A DNA stretch of 64,000 nt, from positions 124,001 to 188,000 of the forward strand of contig CADCJI010000005.1 in the NCBI GenBank assembly GCA_902801625.1, written 5' to 3'. The DNA comes from an uncultured Bacteroidia bacterium. GTDB taxonomy: Bacteria; Bacteroidota; Bacteroidia; Bacteroidales; F082. The notes beneath the pieces were generated by a model. It was not told where the DNA came from, did not search any database, and was given only the letters and a program-made list of their open reading frames with translations. Position 1 is the first letter of the stretch, and every line of letters starts with the position of its first letter. Below are positions 10,284 to 56,611 of the stretch, one piece after another. A program made the position numbers and the translations under genes.

Positions 10284-10357
10284 GGTGCCTTCGACAGGCT
10301 CAGGCACCCTTCACTTTTTGGTTGGCAAAGGTCCCTGAGCCCGTCGAAGGGCCGACC
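10284..10357. repeat. CCTGAGCCTGTCGAAGG inverted doublet, copy 1
   Basis: Minus-oriented arm at 10284-10308 and plus-oriented arm at 10330-10357, separated by 21 nt. REPIN-like doublet upstream of the MazG-like gene. Same family as the arms around the GIY-YIG gene. Confidence 0.85.
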
Positions 10358-12120: not shown

Positions 12121-12867
12121 ATGAAAAAACTGATTTTAATCCGTCACGGAGAAAGTGAATGGAACAAATTGAACCTCTTCACGGGGTGGACCAATGTGGA
12201 CCTCTCTGAAAAAGGCGTACAAGAAGCCATCGAGGCAGGCAAAACACTGAAAGAGAACGGCTACAAACCTGAAATCTGCTTCACCTCTTATCTGAAGCGC
12301 GCCATCAAGACCTTAAACCTCGCTCTCGAGGCCATGGACATGGACTGGCTGCCGGTGTACAAGTCATGGCGACTCAACGAGAAGTCGTATGGCCAACTGC
12401 AAGGCCTCGACAAGAAGATGACCGCCGAGAAATACGGCGACGAGCAAGTGCGCCTGTGGCGTCGTGCCTTCGATGTGCGCCCGCCTGCGCTCGACATGAA
12501 CGACCCCAAGAGCCCCCGCATGGATCCGCGCTATGCCGAACTCACCGACGAGCAAATCCCGCTCACCGAGGCTCTTTGCGACACCATCGAGCGTGTGATG
12601 CCTTATTATGAAAATAACATCATGAAGGCCTTTGAGACCCACGATCAAGTATTGGTGGTGGCCCACGGCAACAGCTTGCGTGGTGTGGTGAAGGTATTGA
12701 AAGGTATGAGCAATGACGAGATCATTGCCTTCAACATCCCGACAGGCATCCCGTATGTCTTCGAGTTCGACGACAATATGAAGTTACAGAAAGACTTCTT
12801 CCTCGGCGATCCCGAGAAGGTGGCCGCGCTGATGGCGGCTGTCGCCAACCAAGGTAAGGCGAAATAA
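12121..12867 (+). CDS. gpmA: 2,3-bisphosphoglycerate-dependent phosphoglycerate mutase
   Basis: 248 residues, standard length. It interconverts 3- and 2-phosphoglycerate in glycolysis. The phosphohistidine motif LIRHGESEWN is at 6-15 (catalytic His9), the SYGQLQG loop follows W..NEK near 88-96, and the second catalytic His lies in VVAHGNSLRG near 180-189. Cytosolic. A MITE-like element begins a few bases after the stop. Confidence 0.95.
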   Translation: MKKLILIRHGESEWNKLNLFTGWTNVDLSEKGVQEAIEAGKTLKENGYKPEICFTSYLKRAIKTLNLALEAMDMDWLPVYKSWRLNEKSYGQLQGLDKKMTAEKYGDEQVRLWRRAFDVRPPALDMNDPKSPRMDPRYAELTDEQIPLTEALCDTIERVMPYYENNIMKAFETHDQVLVVAHGNSLRGVVKVLKGMSNDEIIAFNIPTGIPYVFEFDDNMKLQKDFFLGDPEKVAALMAAVANQGKAK

Positions 12868-12872
12868 TTGGT

Positions 12873-13002
12873 ATTTGCTTCGCAAAGAAATCTGTCAAAA
12901 ATCATAATAAAATCGATCGAAAATCATATAAAAAGATTTTGAAAGATTTTGAAAGATTTTAAAAACAGATTTTTGACAGATTTCTTGCCCGTAGGGCAAT
13001 CC
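12873..13002. mobile_element. MITE-like element A, copy 1
   Basis: Perfect 19-bp terminal inverted repeat AAGAAATCTGTCAAAAATC at 12885-12903 and its complement at 12968-12986. Each end also carries its own mini-hairpin (TTTGC-ttc-GCAAA; TTGCCC-gta-GGGCAA). The interior has three tandem AAAGATTTTG-like units and no ORF. Copy 2 is at 33855-33958. Confidence 0.75.
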
Positions 13003-13004
13003 CA

Positions 13005-14345
13005 TTAGAAAATATAATTAAACCCGACGAAAGTCTTCAGTTTCTCACCGTCGCGTTTGTCCAAGGCTTTGCCTAAGTCGACAGACACAACGAGATTGCG
13101 GTTCATGATGAGTTTGAGGCCGCAGCCTGCGCTCATGTGAAGGCCTTCTTTGCCAGCATAGCATTCAAAAGCAGGTTCGTAGTTGGGTATGCCAGAACCG
13201 CCAGCCTCCTTCATTTCTTCCTCTCTAAAAGGTTGCGTCACCATACCTGCATCGAAGAAAGGATTCAAGGCCACTAGCCAGTTTTGGTTAATGAATTGGA
13301 ATCCTACGATGCGCCAGCGCATTTCCAGATTGGCAAAGGCAAAGCCCTCGCCGATGACGCCATTACGGTTCACACCGCGCATGGTCACGCTGCCGCCCAA
13401 ACCTTCAGTGTACATTTTTTGGAAGAACATAGTGTTCAGGTTATTAATCATATACCACGGGGTTTTGCCAGCGATGCGGTTTTGGGCACCGAGGCGATAG
13501 GCGAGAGTCAGTTTGTCCTTGTAGACAGGGATGTATTGTCTCCACAAGAAGGTGTACGACAGGTTACTGTAGCCCTTGCGGTCGATGAAGTCGGGAGCAC
13601 CCACTAACGTGGCTTCAGCGTAGATGCCTTTGGTCGGGTCGCTGTTGTGGTCGCGGCTGTCGTACAACATGCCGAGGCGGATTTGCGTGGTGTTGCCGCC
13701 ATGGGCCTCATCTTCCTTGATGATGTTGTTTGCGGTATATTCTTCATACAAGGTTACTTGGTCTTCATAACCTTCCAGGTTGATGCGGTCGACTTTGGTG
13801 TTGTAGTATGCTAAGCCCGCCGTCCAATATAGGTTAGGCACGCCAAAAAACGGTCTTTGCATGCTACCCACAAAGCGGAATTGGTTGCGGTTGATGAAAT
13901 GGTAGCCGCTCTTAATGCCTTCTAAACCAGCATAAGGGTCGAAAGTGCTGGCTTCGAAGCCATTGAAGCCGAAGAACTCGTATTTCTTGGCGTAGAAATA
14001 GGTCACGTCGAAGAAGAGCTTGGTGTCTTTCACGACGTAGGGCATGTCACTATAGAAACGGAACACACCCGAGCCTTTGGTGTAGCGCGAGGCCTCCACG
14101 TTGAACTTGTAGTTGTAGCGAGGATAGCGCGAGCCGTCGCCGAAGTTGAAGATGTCGCAAGTCACACCGTACTGGAAGCCTAAGTCTGCATCGTAGCCCA
14201 CCACGGGCAGTGGACCGAAGTTCCAGCCTTTCTTGATGATTTCGCCTTTTTCGTTATAGGTCTTTTCTTTCTTGGCTTTCTTTTCTTGAGCCATGCCGCA
14301 CACGGCCAACAGCAGGGTGAGCATTAGTAATAATGATTTTTTCAT
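13005..14345 (-). CDS. Omp85/BamA-type surface antigen barrel
   Basis: 446 residues from ATG 14345, where a signal peptide MKKSLLLMLTLLLAVCGMAQ starts; a longer frame to 14387 would run into an inverted repeat. There are no POTRA domains before the barrel. The C-terminal bacterial surface antigen domain is recognised by the long amphipathic strands, the GSVTMRGVNRNGVIGEG motif (a VRGF/Y-like element) and a terminal FVGFNYIF strand with a C-terminal Phe. Probably a membrane porin-like or small Omp85 protein; substrate unknown. Confidence 0.75.
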   Translation of the reverse strand: MKKSLLLMLTLLLAVCGMAQEKKAKKEKTYNEKGEIIKKGWNFGPLPVVGYDADLGFQYGVTCDIFNFGDGSRYPRYNYKFNVEASRYTKGSGVFRFYSDMPYVVKDTKLFFDVTYFYAKKYEFFGFNGFEASTFDPYAGLEGIKSGYHFINRNQFRFVGSMQRPFFGVPNLYWTAGLAYYNTKVDRINLEGYEDQVTLYEEYTANNIIKEDEAHGGNTTQIRLGMLYDSRDHNSDPTKGIYAEATLVGAPDFIDRKGYSNLSYTFLWRQYIPVYKDKLTLAYRLGAQNRIAGKTPWYMINNLNTMFFQKMYTEGLGGSVTMRGVNRNGVIGEGFAFANLEMRWRIVGFQFINQNWLVALNPFFDAGMVTQPFREEEMKEAGGSGIPNYEPAFECYAGKEGLHMSAGCGLKLIMNRNLVVSVDLGKALDKRDGEKLKTFVGFNYIF

Positions 14346-14363
14346 ATTGGTTATTTTTATTGT

Positions 14364-14444
14364 CGGTTTGTAGGGCTGTCGTACCACGGCAGCCTATATT
14401 GGTCGTTTTTTGCGGCTGCCACCATGTGACAGCCCTACAAACCG
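14364..14444. repeat. Long nested inverted repeat in an mRNA leader
   Basis: CGGTTTGTAGGGCTGTC at 14364-14380 pairs perfectly over 17 bp with 14428-14444; inside, GGCAGCC pairs with GGCTGCC. It lies between the minus-strand promoter at 14445-14452 and the Omp85-like start, so it would fold in that mRNA leader. Confidence 0.8.
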
Positions 14445-14452
14445 CAAAAATA
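14445..14452 (-). promoter_or_regulatory. Promoter of the Omp85-like gene
   Basis: Complement reads TATTTTTG, a -7 box about 100 nt upstream of the start at 14345. Confidence 0.55.
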
Positions 14453-18853: not shown

Positions 18854-19783
18854 ATGCAAAACTTTAATTTACACACACATAGCGTTTATAGCGATGGCAA
18901 ATCCCAGCCACGCGAAATCGTAGAGGAGGCCTTCCGTCAAGGTTTGACCACGATAGGTTTTTCGGAACATAGTCCGCTACCTTTCGACAATACATTTTCG
19001 GTGAAGTCAGCCGACATGCCGCGTTATGTGGCGGAAATCGCCCAACTGAAAGAGGAATTCAAGGATCAACTTGACATCTATTGCGCTTTGGAGGCTGATT
19101 ATCTTACAGGCGTTTCCGAGCCATTTGCCGTGACTAAGGAGAAGTATCACCTTGATTATCTGATTGGTGGAGTGCATCTTGTTATTAATCCGGCCCTTCG
19201 ACAGGCTCAGGGACCTGCAAAAACCAAGGTCGTTGAGCCTGTCGAAATCGAGATTCGACGTAGTCAAACGCCGGCCATTTCAGCTGATGAAATTTGGTTC
19301 ATCGATGGCCCGAAATGGGAAGTCTATGACGAAGGCCTGCAAAAGTTCTTCGATGGTGACATCCATCGTGCCGTGCGCCGTTTCTTTGAGCAGTCGAATG
19401 AAATGATTGAAAACGAGTCGTTTGACATCATTGCGCACTTCGACAAAATCAAGATGCATAACCGCGACCGTTATTTCCACGAAGACGAGCCTTGGTACCG
19501 CAAACTCGCACTCGAAACCCTCGACCTCATTCGTGAGAAAGGCCTCGTTATGGAAATCAACACACGGGGCATCTACAAGAAACGCTACAACGGCTTCTAT
19601 CCTTCGCCCTGGCTGATGGAGGAAGCCTGCAAGATGGGTGTTCCTGCCATCATCTCCGCTGACGCCCACCATTTCAGTGAAATCACCCTTGAATTTGCTG
19701 CTGCCGAGGAAGCTTTGAAGAGAGCGGGGTATCGCAGTGTGGTGAATTTCAAGGATGGGCATTTTATTGAAATAGGCCTGTGA
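18854..19783 (+). CDS. PHP-domain histidinol-phosphatase-like, with in-frame repeat
   Basis: 309 residues. The polymerase and histidinol phosphatase metal site starts with NLHTHSVYSDGKS (about 4-16); later metal ligands include GFSEHS, DYLIGGVHLV, IIAHFDKIK and SADAHH. The family hydrolyses phosphoesters, in HisJ the histidinol-phosphate step, but no other his gene is near. Between GVHLV and DEIWFIDG sit about 35 extra residues, of which [10 protein letters not shown]...VVEPVEIE is encoded by an inverted doublet at 19191-19253. The frame is kept, so the enzyme may still work with a surface insertion. Confidence 0.8.
   Translation: MQNFNLHTHSVYSDGKSQPREIVEEAFRQGLTTIGFSEHSPLPFDNTFSVKSADMPRYVAEIAQLKEEFKDQLDIYCALEADYLTGVSEPFAVTKEKYHLDYLIGGVHLVINPALRQAQGPAKTKVVEPVEIEIRRSQTPAISADEIWFIDGPKWEVYDEGLQKFFDGDIHRAVRRFFEQSNEMIENESFDIIAHFDKIKMHNRDRYFHEDEPWYRKLALETLDLIREKGLVMEINTRGIYKKRYNGFYPSPWLMEEACKMGVPAIISADAHHFSEITLEFAAAEEALKRAGYRSVVNFKDGHFIEIGL
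19191..19253. repeat. CCTGAGCCTGTCGAAGG doublet inside a gene, copy 2
   Basis: Minus arm 19191-19216 and plus arm 19228-19253, 11-nt spacer, inside the PHP gene. Read without stop as ALRQAQGP...VEPVE. Confidence 0.85.
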
Positions 19784-21027: not shown

Positions 21028-21489
21028 TTATTCAATAGGTTTAAAAATGTATCGTTTATCATATTCAATTCCATATTCTTCCAAAAAGTCAATGTATTCT
21101 TCTGTAAATCTCTTTTTCCTATGATGTTCCTCTTGTGTTTCAATGTAGCTGCACACATTTGGGATTTGGCTCTTGCTATAAGAAAACGCCCCAAATCCTT
21201 CTTGCCATGAGAAATTTCCTTTGACAAAATGATTGGCATTTATCCACGCAGACGAATCTCGTTTCACCTCTTGCATTAGATGAGATAACGATTCAGATGG
21301 ACGAAAACCAAACAAGATATGTACATGGTCGCCCATACCGCCGATAGCAAGCACCTTGTGACCGTTGTTCTGTATAATAGAAATAATATACTGGTATAGC
21401 CTATCTCTCCAGCTTTTATCAATCAGACAGAGCCTGTTTTGGACCGTGAAGACGGTATGTATATGTATCTGTGTGTATGTGTTTGGCAT
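21028..21489 (-). CDS. REP-associated tyrosine transposase (RAYT, Y1 HUH)
   Basis: 153 residues, typical of the IS200/IS605 TnpA / RAYT superfamily. The HUH motif is GDHVHILF (His55, His57); the catalytic tyrosine is Tyr115 in SYIETQ with the conserved Gln119; WQEGFGAFSYS matches the usual W(Q)xGFGAF. The family nicks and rejoins single-stranded hairpin DNA. The gene lies between groups of GCATCCC/GGGATGC palindromes on both sides, the classic arrangement of RAYT and REP. No TnpB is present. Confidence 0.9.
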   Translation of the reverse strand: MPNTYTQIHIHTVFTVQNRLCLIDKSWRDRLYQYIISIIQNNGHKVLAIGGMGDHVHILFGFRPSESLSHLMQEVKRDSSAWINANHFVKGNFSWQEGFGAFSYSKSQIPNVCSYIETQEEHHRKKRFTEEYIDFLEEYGIEYDKRYIFKPIE

Positions 21490-29868: not shown

Positions 29869-29870
29869 CT

Positions 29871-29930
29871 GCCCTTCGACAGGCTCAGGAACCTGCAAAA
29901 GCAGAGGTCGTTGAGCTTGTCGAAATCGAA
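29871..29930. repeat. CCTGAGCCTGTCGAAGG doublet, copy 3
   Basis: Minus arm 29871-29894 and plus arm 29906-29930, 11-nt spacer, directly behind lemA. Confidence 0.85.
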
Positions 29931-30001
29931 GATTCAATGTAATTAAACGCCGATTTTTGAAAATAAGACAAAAAAATCTTGCGTCGTTTTTTTCAATCCA
30001 C

Positions 30002-42634: not shown

Positions 42635-44347
42635 ATGACGGAATCAAAAATATTTATCTCAAAAGCCACCCAACGCAACTGGGACAAGTTGAAAAACAGC
42701 GGTGCCGACCGATTGACGCGACGGGCCAACAAGAGCCGTTCGCAGAAAATCATCACCCCTGAAGGCTATGTAATGGCGGGTAGCCTGCCCCGCTTTGTGG
42801 AAGAGCTGAAGGCTGCTTACTATCCCATGGAGGATTTGATTTACAGCCTTTGCGCCATGTATTTGGAGCATAACAAGGTCAACGAAGCCAACAAGAGCCG
42901 TTTCTTCGAGGAGTACACGCAGTATCAGCGTATTGAGCTTGAAGTGCCTCGGCAAATTCTCAAAAACCGGCAAGACGACTGGATTGGTTTCGTCTATCAG
43001 TCGCTGACGGCGGAAGGTAGCCGCATCTTGAAAGGACTTTACTACACCAAGCCCGTGATTGTCAACGAGATGCTTTCCGACATACGTGTCTTGAATGGTG
43101 AAAAATTTCTCGACCCCTGCTGTGGTAGCGGCATCTTCCTGTTGAAAGTCCAACATGCCCAGATGGAACAGCTCTATGGCATCGACAACGATCCGCTTGC
43201 GGTGATGATTGCCAAAGCCAACTTGATGGTCAAGTTCAATGAATCATCGGTTTATCCACAAATTTATCAGATGGACTTTCTGCTTCACGCAGCCTCGGCT
43301 TTGGGCGATTTGAAGTTCGACTACATCGTCACCAATCCGCCTTGGGGTACGGAAAAGGGCAAGCTTCATCCTTCTGAGATCATTCAATCCAAAGAGAAGG
43401 CTTCGCTGTTTTTCACCGAATCGTTCAAGTTCCTGAACAGGAATGGAATACAGCATTTCCTTTTGCCATCCTCTGTGATGAAGATCAAGGTGCACGCTGA
43501 TTTGCGTCGTTTTGTGACTCATGAAACACACATAGAGAGCCTGAAATGCTATCGCGAGCGTTTCAAAGGCGTTTTTACGGATTTCATCAGCTTGAAAGTC
43601 AGCAAGAAACCGACATTTGGAGGTCAGAATTATTTGGTGTATGGTGCCAATAATGAAGTTTCACGGAAAGAGTTTAAGCTTGTTGAAGACGACTTCTGTG
43701 CTATTCCCATGCTGAACGACCGCGATGAGGCTATCATCGGCAAGGTGGAGCGTTTGCGTTACGACGACCTCTCACATAGCCAATGGGCTTTGGGCATCAT
43801 CACGGGCAACAATGCCAAAGTGCTGAAAGACAGGCCAAGAAAAGGCTTGGAACCCATTTATACGGGTAAGGACATTAGTAAATACAGCCTAAAAAAGGCC
43901 AGCCGTTATGTCAAATACAATCGCGCTGATTTTCAGCAGTGTGCGAAGGATGAGTTGTATCGGGCGAAGGAAAAGTTGGTGTATAAGTTTGTCTCAGGTC
44001 ATCTTTGCTTCACCTACGACGACAAGCAACGTTTGTTCCTCAATAGTGCCAATATCCTCATTCCCGAAGTGGATGGCATGAGTGTCAAGACGGTGTTGGC
44101 TTTCCTTAATTCATCGTTGTTCAACTTCTTGTATGTCAAGCGATTCAACGACCTTAAGATATTGAAGGGTAATCTTTCGACTTTGCCTTTCCCGAAAATT
44201 ACGCCAGAACAAGACCAACAACTCGCGGCTCTTGTTGACCGTGCTTTGGACGGGAATAAAGAAGCGCAAAAGGAGATTGATGGGATGATTATTGATTTGT
44301 ATCAGTTTGGTTCTGATGAAATAGCTTCAATACAAAGTAAAAGTTAA
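42635..44347 (+). CDS. Orphan N6-adenine DNA methyltransferase (Eco57I/TaqI type)
   Basis: 570 residues from ATG 42635 (MTESKIFISKATQ). The N-terminal 140 residues are helical. Motif I is FLDPCCGSGIFLL (about 163-175), motif IV IVTNPPWG (about 236-243), typical of gamma-class N6-adenine methyltransferases; the last 200 residues (IYTGKDISKYSLKKASRY, LNSANILIPEV, LLFLNSSLFNFLY-like) are a TaqI-like DNA-recognition domain. No PD-(D/E)XK endonuclease domain is seen and no restriction gene adjoins, so it may be a solitary methylase. The stop touches a GIY-YIG element. Confidence 0.85.
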   Translation: MTESKIFISKATQRNWDKLKNSGADRLTRRANKSRSQKIITPEGYVMAGSLPRFVEELKAAYYPMEDLIYSLCAMYLEHNKVNEANKSRFFEEYTQYQRIELEVPRQILKNRQDDWIGFVYQSLTAEGSRILKGLYYTKPVIVNEMLSDIRVLNGEKFLDPCCGSGIFLLKVQHAQMEQLYGIDNDPLAVMIAKANLMVKFNESSVYPQIYQMDFLLHAASALGDLKFDYIVTNPPWGTEKGKLHPSEIIQSKEKASLFFTESFKFLNRNGIQHFLLPSSVMKIKVHADLRRFVTHETHIESLKCYRERFKGVFTDFISLKVSKKPTFGGQNYLVYGANNEVSRKEFKLVEDDFCAIPMLNDRDEAIIGKVERLRYDDLSHSQWALGIITGNNAKVLKDRPRKGLEPIYTGKDISKYSLKKASRYVKYNRADFQQCAKDELYRAKEKLVYKFVSGHLCFTYDDKQRLFLNSANILIPEVDGMSVKTVLAFLNSSLFNFLYVKRFNDLKILKGNLSTLPFPKITPEQDQQLAALVDRALDGNKEAQKEIDGMIIDLYQFGSDEIASIQSKS

Positions 44348-44705
44348 GGTCCCTGAGCCTGTCGAAGGGCCGGTTTAAGAAACAAAAGTATATGTGTTAT
44401 ATGTATATTCTTCGTTGTTCAAACGGCCAGTATTATGTTGGAAGCACACAAGATTTAGACAAAAGACTTGCAGAACATCAATGTGGTGAAGGAGCTTTGT
44501 TCACCAAAAAGCATCTTCCCGTTGAACTTGTCTATTACGAGCAGTTTCAAAGAATTGTAGATGCTTTTCAAAGAGAGCATCAAGTCAAAGGTTGGAATCG
44601 TCATAAGAAAGAAGCTTTAATTAATAACCATCCTGAATTATTGCCGGAGTTGTCGAAACATCAATAATTACTATACAAGTCGGCCCTTCGACAGGCTCAG
44701 GGACC
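44348..44705. mobile_element. GIY-YIG gene bounded by 25-bp inverted repeats
   Basis: Left arm 44348-44372 and right arm 44681-44705 are perfect inverted copies (25/25) containing CCCTGAGCCTGTCGAAGGG. The left arm begins at the first base after the methyltransferase stop. The 358-bp unit contains only the GIY-YIG gene. The same arms occur as empty doublets at 10284, 19191, 29871 and 54150. Confidence 0.7.
44392..44667 (+). CDS. GIY-YIG nuclease (UPF0213-like)
   Basis: 91 residues, nearly all GIY-YIG domain: [29 protein letters not shown] gives the two Tyr-motifs (MYI, YYVG) and the catalytic Arg (about 25); Glu in VYYEQF and [18 protein letters not shown] complete it. The family includes homing and repair nucleases; most UPF0213 proteins are uncharacterised. 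It sits inside perfect inverted repeats, which suggests a mobile unit. Its own promoter is not clear. Confidence 0.88.
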
Positions 44706-44728
44706 TATGCTATTTTAAACCTTTAATC

Positions 44729-45739: not shown

Positions 45740-45814
45740 GTTTGATAATAGATGAGCAAATTTAGTTTATATAAATACATGCGACGCAGGACTATCGGAC
45801 TATGACTTGTGACA

Positions 45815-45858
45815 ATGACTATGACCGCTCAAATTGATGTAAAAGCGGTCATAGTCAT
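45815..45858. repeat. ATGACTATGACCGCT hairpin (tcatagtcat family)
   Basis: Perfect 15-bp stem: 45815-45829 with 45844-45858. More catagtca units flank it (about 45798-45887). It is part of the 363-nt gap after galE. Confidence 0.85.
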
Positions 45859-45943
45859 GGTCAATGGTCATAGTCAAAAAGTCAAATACATGTAGTTTAA
45901 TTATAATAGTTTAGCAAGATTCATTCACTTATGCTCATGATTT

Positions 45944-53358: not shown

Positions 53359-54744
53359 ATGTTCCCTAAAACCGACCCATCATACTTCGACGGTCCTTGG
53401 AACTTTGAGAAGACCGAACACGCTGTGCTCGGCCTCTGCAAGATCCTCGACCGTTACGCCCATAAGCTGACGCTGGAAGACTTGCAGAACGACCCACGTT
53501 GTGCCAAGATTCCCAATCTGAGTCTTGACACGGTTCAAGAGGTCATCCGAGATGTGGAAGCCAAGCTCTGGCGTGGCGCGCAGTTCTTCGAGAACGAAGT
53601 CATCTACCACACGGGTCCGCACCACGATGACATCATGCTTGGCATCATGCCCTTCATCAACAGGCAGCTGCGCTCGCCCAAGAACCAGGTGCATTTTGCC
53701 ATCATGACCTCGGGTTATCACAGCGTCACCGATGCCTTCTTGCAGAAGGCCATGGAAGACACCTTGGACTACCTGTATCAAGGCCGCATCCAAATGGTGC
53801 GCTACCCCGATTTCTTCGAGCAGGGCTATCGGTTCAAGCAGGAGAAAGACATCCACCATTACCTCGACAATGTCGCCCGTCGCAACCCCGACGAGATGCG
53901 CCGTGGCTTTTGTCACCGCATTCTCCGCGATGCCGTAGGTCTTTGGGGATTGAAGAGCGTCGACGATGTCGAGACGCGTTTCAAGATGGAGATTGGGAAC
54001 CTCAAGGAAGGCAAGCCCAACAGCCATGAGATTCAGAAGCTCAAAGGCGAGATCCGCGAATTTGAAGAGGAGCTTGTGTGGGCCTATACCGGTACCGCCT
54101 TGGACCATATCCATCACTTGAGGTTGGGGTTGTATGAAAGTAAAAGCGAGGTCCCTGAGCCCGTCGAAGGGCCGACAAAAAACGGACCGGCCTGTCGACA
54201 GGCTCAAGGACCTGTTTTTTCCCGCGATATTGAGCCCATCCTCAATCAATTCCGAGAATTGAAGCCCACCGTCATCAGCGTCGCCATCGACTCGGAGGGA
54301 CTAGGACCTAACACGCACTACAAGGTCATGCAAAGCATCGCCGAGGCTGTCAGGCTGTGGGGTGAGGAAGCAGACCTCAGCAAGCTGAGGATCTTTGGCT
54401 ACCGCAATGTCTGGTCGACTTTCCATCCTGCCGAGGCCAATGTGTATGTGCCCGTGTCGCTCAATGCTTTCGCCGTGTTCGAGAAGGCCTTCAAAGACAG
54501 CTATCTCACACAGGTCAAGGCGGAGTTTCCCAATCCGGATTTTGATGGTCCTTTCAGCGAATTAGCAGAGACAATCTGGGTGAAGAATTACAAGGATGTG
54601 CAGTTCCTCCTCGGTAAGGACTTTTTCTTTGAGAATGCCCACCCGCTCATCCGCGCCACACATGGACTGATTTTCTTGAAGGAGATGGACGCGAAGGGAT
54701 TTGTCGCCCTAGCGGAGGAGATGAAACAAAAGATAAATGTGTAG
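53359..54744 (+). CDS. PIG-L-like deacetylase with in-frame repeat
   Basis: 461 residues. The Zn site of PIG-L/LmbE proteins appears as TGPHHDDIMLGIMPF (about 88-102), in place of AHPDDE. The rest resembles the PIG-L half of the large Bacteroidota NagB-fusion proteins (MTSGYHSVTDAFL, DHIHHLRLGLYE, LDxEGxGPxTHYKVMQ). A deacetylase or deaminase-linked role on an amino sugar is inferred. Residues about 265-285 (VPEPVEGP...ACRQAQGP) come from a repeat doublet at 54150-54212, which keeps the frame. Starts 6 nt after ugd. Confidence 0.65.
   Translation: MFPKTDPSYFDGPWNFEKTEHAVLGLCKILDRYAHKLTLEDLQNDPRCAKIPNLSLDTVQEVIRDVEAKLWRGAQFFENEVIYHTGPHHDDIMLGIMPFINRQLRSPKNQVHFAIMTSGYHSVTDAFLQKAMEDTLDYLYQGRIQMVRYPDFFEQGYRFKQEKDIHHYLDNVARRNPDEMRRGFCHRILRDAVGLWGLKSVDDVETRFKMEIGNLKEGKPNSHEIQKLKGEIREFEEELVWAYTGTALDHIHHLRLGLYESKSEVPEPVEGPTKNGPACRQAQGPVFSRDIEPILNQFRELKPTVISVAIDSEGLGPNTHYKVMQSIAEAVRLWGEEADLSKLRIFGYRNVWSTFHPAEANVYVPVSLNAFAVFEKAFKDSYLTQVKAEFPNPDFDGPFSELAETIWVKNYKDVQFLLGKDFFFENAHPLIRATHGLIFLKEMDAKGFVALAEEMKQKINV
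54150..54212. repeat. CCTGAGCCTGTCGAAGG doublet inside a gene, copy 5
   Basis: Plus arm 54150-54175 and minus arm 54188-54212, 63 nt in all (21 codons), read as VPEPVEGP...ACRQAQGP. Confidence 0.88.
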
Positions 54745-55531: not shown

Positions 55532-56611
55532 ATGTCAGTATTTAAAGACAAAACCCTTCTCATCACGGGAGGCACAGGCAGCTTCGGCAACGCCGTGCTG
55601 AACCGTTTTTTGAGAACCGATATTGGAGAAATCCGCATCTTCAGCCGCGACGAGAAGAAACAGGACGACATGCGCCACGACTTTCAGGCCCGTATGCCCG
55701 AGGTGGCCAACAAGATCAAGTTCTACATCGGCGATGTGCGCAACAAGAGCACGCTGAAGTATGCCATGAAGGGCGTGGATTATGTGTTCCATGCTGCCGC
55801 CCTGAAGCAAGTGCCTTCGTGTGAGTTTTTCCCGATGGAAGCCGTCAAGACCAATGTGATAGGCACAGACAACACACTCGATGCAGCCATCGATGCCGGC
55901 GTGAAGTGCGTGATTTGTCTCTCGACCGACAAGGCGGCCTATCCCATCAATGCCATGGGTATCACCAAGGCCATCGAGGAGAAGATTGCCGTGGCCAAGA
56001 GCCGACTCTCTGGCAATACCAAGATCTGCTGCACCCGATATGGCAATGTAATGTGCTCACGTGGATCGGTGATTCCGCTTTGGATCGACCAGATTCGCAA
56101 GGGTAACCCAATTACATTGACCGAACCTAAGATGACCCGTTTCATCATGTCGTTGGAAGAGGCTGTTGATTTGGTATTGTTTGCCTTTGAACATGGCCAA
56201 AACGGTGACATCCTTGTGCAGAAAGCTCCTGCCTGCACCATACAGACCCAGGCTGAGGCAGTGTGTGAGCTGTTTGGACATCAGTGGGGTGGCGGTGCTT
56301 CGACAGGATCAGCAGTCGAAAACATCAAGGTGATAGGTATCCGCCACGGCGAGAAGATGTACGAAACCCTCCTTACCAAAGAAGAATGCGCCAAGGCGGA
56401 GGATATGGGCAACTTCTATCGTGTGCCTGCCGACAACCGCGACTTGAACTACGACAAGTATTTCAAGGAAGGCGACATAAAACTTGCCACTATCGAAGAA
56501 TTCAACAGCGACAACACCTATCGGCTCAACCTTCAGGAGACTATTGATAAAATCGCCTCTTTGGAGTACATCCAAAACGAGTTGAACGGTATACCCAACA
56601 TCGTTAAGTGA
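55532..56611 (+). CDS. capE: CapE/WbjB-type UDP-GlcNAc 4,6-dehydratase/5-epimerase
   Basis: 359 residues. Extended SDR: LLITGGTGSFGNAVLNRFL, then YGDV-like FYIGDVRN, AALKQVPSCEFFPMEAVKTNV, and LSTDKAAYPINAMGITKA with the Met-x3-Lys catalytic pair in place of Tyr. The first step of UDP-L-FucNAc synthesis, together with CapF and CapG downstream. An atypical stretch HQWGGGASTGSAVEN near 250-264 may come from a decayed repeat copy (CTTCGACAGGATCAG at 56298). Confidence 0.9.
   Translation: MSVFKDKTLLITGGTGSFGNAVLNRFLRTDIGEIRIFSRDEKKQDDMRHDFQARMPEVANKIKFYIGDVRNKSTLKYAMKGVDYVFHAAALKQVPSCEFFPMEAVKTNVIGTDNTLDAAIDAGVKCVICLSTDKAAYPINAMGITKAIEEKIAVAKSRLSGNTKICCTRYGNVMCSRGSVIPLWIDQIRKGNPITLTEPKMTRFIMSLEEAVDLVLFAFEHGQNGDILVQKAPACTIQTQAEAVCELFGHQWGGGASTGSAVENIKVIGIRHGEKMYETLLTKEECAKAEDMGNFYRVPADNRDLNYDKYFKEGDIKLATIEEFNSDNTYRLNLQETIDKIASLEYIQNELNGIPNIVK

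Follow-up and report, generated by a model that had tools for sequence, protein, structure and literature searches.

A small GIY-YIG nuclease as the candidate dedicated enzyme of a REP-type palindromic repeat system in Bacteroidales and other bacteria

The 64,000-nt stretch of DNA from an uncultured Bacteroidales bacterium that was analysed here (the window) carries a small GIY-YIG nuclease gene enclosed by two inverted copies of a short palindromic arm, gene-free copies of which recur in the window and elsewhere in the genome. Our preferred reading, to which we give a probability of roughly three in four, is that this is a repeat system of the REP type with a small single-domain GIY-YIG nuclease as its dedicated enzyme, in which the nuclease would cut the arm and the host would copy or capture it. 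The partnership of gene and repeat and the mobility of the repeats are well supported, and we infer that the nuclease itself moves the repeats. The initial annotation of the window had already proposed a REP/RAYT-like system with a GIY-YIG enzyme, a proposal that is strongly supported by the present analysis, is general across phyla, and is joined by a match between enzyme clade and repeat type. The results further suggest that a large group of palindromic repeats in bacteria has its missing partner in this GIY-YIG nuclease.

The GIY-YIG unit and its arms

The two arms of the element are complementary at 26/26 positions (Table 1), which leaves the perfect inverted repeats of the initial annotation in place and lengthens them by one base from the 25 bp given there. 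The gene fills the space between the arms, as had been annotated, in the form of a single 91-aa ORF with a GIY-YIG domain, and the putatively autonomous unit measures ~360 bp. PF01541 was the sole domain family matched by the window protein (E = 1.8e-16; 60.6 bits against a cut-off of 22.6), which has no Y1/HUH tyrosine transposase domain; matches to NCBIfam were all below threshold and to group I intron endonucleases, and a search against PHROGs returned no match. Tyr, Tyr, Arg, and Glu are the conserved active-site residues of GIY-YIG enzymes, and Y5, Y15, R25, and E62 of the protein are invariant in an 18-sequence alignment. The only sequences of solved structures matched at E ≤ 0.001 were the UPF0213 GIY-YIG proteins PDB 1zg2 (2.4e-19) and 1ywl (2.1e-15), which, unlike the protein described here, were deposited as hypothetical proteins under titles that make no link to repeats.

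Table 1. Arms, arm doublets, and the GIY-YIG gene in the window (F and R, arm orientations)
Feature	Position	Strand	Remarks
RF arm doublet, no gene	10284..10354	.	present in G000, G016, G031; absent at orthologous site in G021, G018
RF arm doublet inside 309-aa PHP-domain ORF (18854-19783)	19191..19275	.	in-frame
RF arm doublet	29869..29950	.	absent at orthologous site in G021, G024, G031
Left arm (F)	44347..44372	+	26-nt imperfect hairpin, GGT-CCCT-GAGCCTGTCGA-AGGG-CC
GIY-YIG nuclease gene, 91 aa	44392..44667	+	PF01541
Right arm (R)	44681..44706	-	exact inverted copy of left arm
FR arm doublet	54149..54212	.	arm calls
Solitary degenerate arm	56293..56318	-	arm calls

The arm core CCTGAGCNNNTCGAAGG is present in 118 exact copies in the 3.58-Mb genome to which the window belongs, with 0 copies of the reversed pattern used as a control, and the 19-nt arm has eight matches in the window at three or fewer mismatches, whereas 100 shuffles gave 0.00 on average. 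Arm clusters were typed in 354 kb of this genome, comprising the window and 40 stretches chosen for their arms, where 132 arm calls, a few weak ones probably due to chance, collapsed into 85 clusters (28 RF doublets, 11 FR doublets, 42 single arms, and 4 others). Doublets are therefore common and not universal, contrary to the earlier statement that the arms always occur as inverted pairs. RF, the commoner doublet orientation, reverses the F-gene-R order seen in the GIY-YIG element, and it is that of three of the four doublets in the window, the FR order being found only at 54149. The doublet within the PHP-domain ORF is translated in frame as extra residues.

Covariation was examined among 71 distinct upstream arms of arm-flanked genes, where the positions set by the search pattern are invariant by construction. 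A TG in the free middle of the arm was kept in 70/71 and 71/71 arms, and the stem pairs just outside the search pattern were paired in 71/71 and 69/71, with pair types C-G, T-A, and G-C at one of the two outer positions and C-G, G-C, and A-T at the other. The mutual information of these pairs was 1.36 and 0.98 bits, against shuffle maxima of 0.19 and 0.21 and no more than 0.26 in slid registers, and this covariation of the stem reflects selection for a hairpin. The arm is accordingly described as a predicted hairpin with a covarying stem around a conserved GAGCNTGTCGA core; it consists of a 4-bp and a 2-bp stem with a bulged base around an 11-nt core, starts with GGTC, and has no GTAG head. 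Because the nearest-neighbour DNA folding energy of the single arm is weak (z = -0.49 and 0.23 for the two strands), the evidence for this hairpin is the covariation and not the energy; two CGTC-type hairpins, by comparison, fold strongly (z = -4.05 and -5.15). Tandem G-A pairs are a known motif, and the arm core could form them.

Recurrence of the unit across phyla and the match of enzyme clade to repeat type

A total of 84,980 GTDB species genomes were scanned for two facing arms 300-330 nt apart, blind to the content between them, and at least 116 loci were recovered. Among the loci listed, 71 held a GIY-YIG gene, 70 of these inside a matched arm pair. The distance to the GIY-YIG domain is mostly 39-72 nt for the upstream F arm and 24-63 nt for the downstream R arm, and the gene of one locus (L114) is broken across two frames. 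Among the gene-bearing loci listed are ones from Sphingomonadales, Beta- and Gammaproteobacteria, Bacteroidota, Treponema, Eremiobacterota, Syntrophaceae, and Dependentiae, so that the unit of gene and arms recurs across several phyla; none was found in viral contigs. The remaining 45 of the 116 listed loci contained no GIY-YIG gene, and several of them lie in arm-dense genomes such as that of Microlunatus.

Thirty-five named arm-bearing genomes were picked by hand from the scan, many with the gene already seen, and a profile match was found in 33, one of them weak, leaving 32 with a small GIY-YIG gene. The best-scoring gene was flanked by arms on both sides in 20 of the 30 loci examined from these genomes, and eight of the other ten had another inverted repeat with a score of at least 14. 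The non-circular part of this test is formed by the 12 genomes with no gene at the scan locus: nine have a strong GIY-YIG gene elsewhere, and all seven loci examined from those nine (including Microlunatus, Plantibacter, Microbacterium, and an Anaerolineales genome) had arms on both sides of it.

Small GIY-YIG genes are common beyond these loci, with a profile match in 97 of 148 sampled Bacteroidota genomes and as many as 22 matches in a single genome, and many of them lie between repeats of other kinds. The 47 distinct small GIY-YIG genes from loci of the genus and the order, classed by score thresholds of our own setting, comprised seven with the arms described here, 18 with a CGTC-like inverted repeat, 10 with another inverted repeat, and 12 with none; thus, the expectation of matching arms around GIY-YIG genes fails for many of them, many of which have other inverted palindromes instead. 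When genes were found by protein profile (the best matches from the 148 Bacteroidota genomes, 30 loci), an inverted-repeat score of at least 14 was reached in 11/30, against 4/600 control windows from the same loci (p = 3e-15). Among 28 usable genes of Actinomycetota, the same score was reached in 13/18 above and 1/10 below a 78-bit line that we set ourselves, and in 13/560 controls; the genes below the line serve as a negative control within the set. Twelve plasmid-borne GIY-YIG genes taken from 47 records, a sample with no control set, gave scores of at least 18 in five cases and at least 12 in eight, and among these 12 no inverted repeat was seen at the genes of Variovorax, Acidiphilium, Salinivibrio, and S. 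paeninsulae.

CGTC-tagged REPs, described from five phyla and including the dRS3 repeats of Neisseria and the RPE-4/RPE-6 repeats of Rickettsia, had no apparent dedicated enzyme or transposase according to the paper describing them (Di Nocera et al. 2013, PMC3733652). GIY-YIG genes of Azospirillum, Rhizobium, and Shinella lie between hairpins that fit the form described in that paper, the flanks of three loci (L269, L270, and L275) showing a CGTC head, a stem of 8-9 bp starting with AT, a loop of 4-5 nt, and a CCA tail. The arms of the window, unlike these, do not have the CGTC features as given there and make up a separate subtype with the GAGCNTGTCGA core. Strict CGTC hairpins were found on both sides of only 15/90 genes outside the GAGC/TCGA side of the protein tree (below), 0/42 genes on it, and 6/1310 control windows, a count from which loci of the arm scan and multi-copy loci were left out.

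On a tree of 223 proteins, labelled by author-set score thresholds as having GAGC/TCGA arms (85) or CGTC-like repeats (64), the two labels required three changes, against at least 39 (mean 48.5) in 200 shuffles; with the arm-selected loci removed (17 and 64 labels), the figure was again three, against at least 10 (mean 15.8). The best split, with a support of 96, gathered 84/85 GAGC/TCGA genes with 1/64 CGTC-like genes and 27 others, and the lone GAGC/TCGA gene outside it (L312, from a Nitrotoga genome) carries a composite repeat, its core nested within a CGTC-like hairpin. The repeat type is predicted by the enzyme clade, and since the GAGC/TCGA side spans several phyla, the match is not simply one of host phylogeny. 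The same side also holds repeat-less genes and Actinomycetota genes with a further repeat family. We lean slightly towards the wider view in which a second REP superfamily, made up of the CGTC-tagged and GAGC/TCGA-core repeats and independent of HUH transposases, has small GIY-YIG nucleases as its dedicated mobilising enzymes.

Several loci departed from the usual layout. GIY-YIG copies form tandem arrays in L054 (G059; three copies with 354-bp spacing) and L064 (G037; two copies), the gene of L044 (G047) lies between direct repeats of a CCTGAGTTTATCGAAGG arm variant and not between inverted arms, and the C-termini of several arm-flanked GIY-YIG proteins (L102, L137, and L144) extend into the arm with residues such as PSTGSG. 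Four Actinomycetota genes on the GAGC/TCGA side (L371, L373, L375, and L377) have other inverted repeats around them, several of the GGTCGAGTAGCGA / TCGAGACC type.

Mobility of units and repeats

Within the genus, the unit with GAGC/TCGA arms occupies one of two sites. Site 1 (G000, G012, G019, and G066) is bordered by genes for an Eco57I/TaqI-type methyltransferase and a galE-like epimerase, and site 2 (G016, G021, G028, and G033) by genes for a LUD-domain protein and a MoxR-type ATPase. The two genes of site 1 are adjacent and without arms in eight other congeners, among them G028 and G033, which have the unit at site 2, and the empty sites that the initial annotation had proposed to seek in relatives are thereby present. 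Between species, arm matches are 96-100% identical over 26-36 nt and whole units 71-94%. Gene-free doublets vary likewise (Table 1): the match flanking the empty counterpart of the doublet at 29869 in G021 is 95% identical, and the doublet at 19191 is absent from G012, a single arm in G066 and G021, a doublet in G018, and a nested arm in G024. In Azospirillum lipoferum 4B, a unit with CGTC REPs lies between sufB and sufC; the five relatives examined are without it. Both the unit and the gene-free repeats are polymorphic at orthologous sites.

Twelve multi-copy genomes were inspected for the ends of paralogous units. Clean ends were found in only two (G192 and G157), where the homology runs from outer repeat end to outer repeat end, and at one end in G171; tandem or longer duplications were seen in G136, G149, G175, G195, and G222, and the other multi-copy genomes offered no usable pair. 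No excision product was seen, nor was a target site duplication at the junctions of the Azospirillum unit and the genus doublets, which are too diverged to define a target.

The nuclease might instead serve host maintenance by removing or trimming hairpins, either in DNA or in RNA from transcribed arms, with the flanking arms as its own regulatory sites and the repeats spreading by other means. Such a role would agree with the strong purifying selection on the gene (dN/dS 0.05-0.12 among congeners where dS was computable, dS being often saturated), with the retention of a single copy in each congener at one or other of two loci, and with the low-scoring Actinomycetota relatives, of which only the one in ten mentioned above is associated with a repeat. 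We nevertheless consider it unlikely, given that the gene-plus-arm unit is itself present or absent at orthologous sites and that the homology of paralogues stops at the outer repeat ends in G192 and G157.

Homing is a second alternative, in which the nuclease would cut gene-free copies of the arm and repair from a donor would copy the arm-gene-arm segment into them. GIY-YIG homing endonucleases exist, the free-standing ones of phages being likewise small selfish genes, and inspection by eye revealed arms whose loop is interrupted by another arm (e.g., L217, L240, and G024). We nevertheless consider homing unlikely: the empty sites studied (site 1 of the genus and the Azospirillum site), although their spacers are diverged, have no resident arm that could have been cut, and arms of 26 nt are short for recombination. 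We also know of no phage GIY-YIG homing system with flanking REP arms or genome-wide REP families.

In the preferred reading of a dedicated nuclease, the arm, gene, and inverted arm would form the autonomous unit, and solitary arms and doublets would be its non-autonomous relatives. The nuclease may recognise its own arm when this is exposed in hairpin form, in single-stranded DNA or in a cruciform, and cut in or beside it, after which the cut arm or unit would be copied or captured elsewhere by host replication and repair. This last step is assigned to the host because GIY-YIG chemistry is hydrolytic in the enzymes known; a strand-transfer step of an unrecognised kind would be an alternative route of reinsertion. 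Related GIY-YIG clades would play the same role for CGTC-tagged REPs.

Arm number, PF01797 transposases, and known REP systems

The initial annotation had expected the number of arms to follow the presence of a GIY-YIG gene, and in the genus this holds in one direction only. Among 36 genomes, the seven with an arm-flanked gene all have at least 35 arms (35-148) and the 29 without it have 0-82 (p = 1e-4, with no phylogenetic correction and with many genomes incomplete), and the gene is found in 0/21 genomes with fewer than 20 arms. Yet eight of the 15 genomes with at least 20 arms are without it, including one that is 97% complete (G018, 74 arms), and among the 29 genomes without an arm-flanked gene the presence of other small GIY-YIG genes is no predictor of arms (p = 0.19). 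Further arm-rich genomes without the gene are those of Rhizobacter (G246, 263 arms), Planctomonas (G250, 491), and G514 (40), and a Christiangramia genome with 26 arms (G260, the weak match among the named genomes) has no small GIY-YIG gene, its match lying in a 461-aa frame. Besides the chosen centre G248, two of 396 Actinomycetota genomes have at least 20 arms, G624 with the gene and G514.

The strongest rival is a RAYT or other IS200-like HUH transposase that moves the arms in trans, the GIY-YIG gene being a passenger caught between them. PF01797 matches occur in all 15 arm-rich genomes of the genus, and their number tracks that of the arms (two or more copies in 15/15 arm-rich vs 5/21 arm-poor genomes; Spearman 0.56). 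Against this, none of the 65 PF01797 matches from the 15 arm-rich genomes (7 best matches, 20, and 38, five of the last with surroundings cut short by contig ends) is flanked on both sides by these arms within 400 nt, many lie between inverted palindromes of another kind, and a passenger gene would not give the match of enzyme clade to repeat type. We therefore set the PF01797 transposase aside as the mover of the arms and hold its involvement to be improbable; from the same counts, two enzyme-repeat systems with separate repeats seem to coexist. The window has a PF01797 (IS200/RAYT-type) gene of its own at 21028-21489, surrounded by a different inverted palindrome of the CATCCCATCGGGATG type. 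An artefact of chance or composition can be dismissed in view of the shuffle control (0.00), the reversed-pattern control (0), and the control windows, and we found nothing in its favour.

RAYT genes are described as always lying between two inverted REPs (PMC2817692), and REPINs without an enzyme are also described, RAYT-bearing genomes holding more REPINs than RAYT-less ones (PMC8049555). On that account, the system with a dedicated nuclease works by its layout like a REPtron (RAYT/REP/REPIN), and by its enzyme it is not a RAYT. The likeness takes in the enzyme gene between two inverted palindromic repeats, the enzyme-free singles and inverted dimers, the covarying stems, the purifying selection on the enzyme, and the existence of repeat populations without the enzyme; it extends to the dispersal of doublets in the genome (RF and FR together, 28 + 11 of the 85 clusters) and to the larger number of repeats in enzyme-bearing genomes, a comparison of the 36 genus genomes (p = 1e-4) that ignores kinship. 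The difference lies in a GIY-YIG nuclease where RAYTs have a Y1/HUH tyrosine transposase, in the missing GTAG head, and in the PF01797 genes of these genomes, which are separate and without these arms. A literature search, which covered titles and abstract openings and lay outside subscription journals and preprints, gave no link of GIY-YIG genes to REPs among the matches listed and no match to the arm sequence or its variants.

Were the preferred reading of a dedicated nuclease correct, the REP/RAYT problem would have a second solution that is not homologous to the first, a common family of small GIY-YIG genes would gain a function, and a class of mobile elements would rely on a hydrolytic hairpin nuclease with host repair, or on an unrecognised strand-transfer activity, instead of a transposase. 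With a candidate enzyme whose clades match the repeat types, the questions of where CGTC-tagged REPs came from and how they spread become directly testable.

The window holds other palindromic repeats as well. One of ~85 bp lies at 45744-45911, just downstream of the epimerase gene, and has many copies on both strands in congeners; two further regions, 12860-13010 and 14340-14450, contain palindromic repeats with many copies in congeners, and the repeat at 14340-14450 contains GTAGGGCTGTC and looks like a GTAG-type REP.
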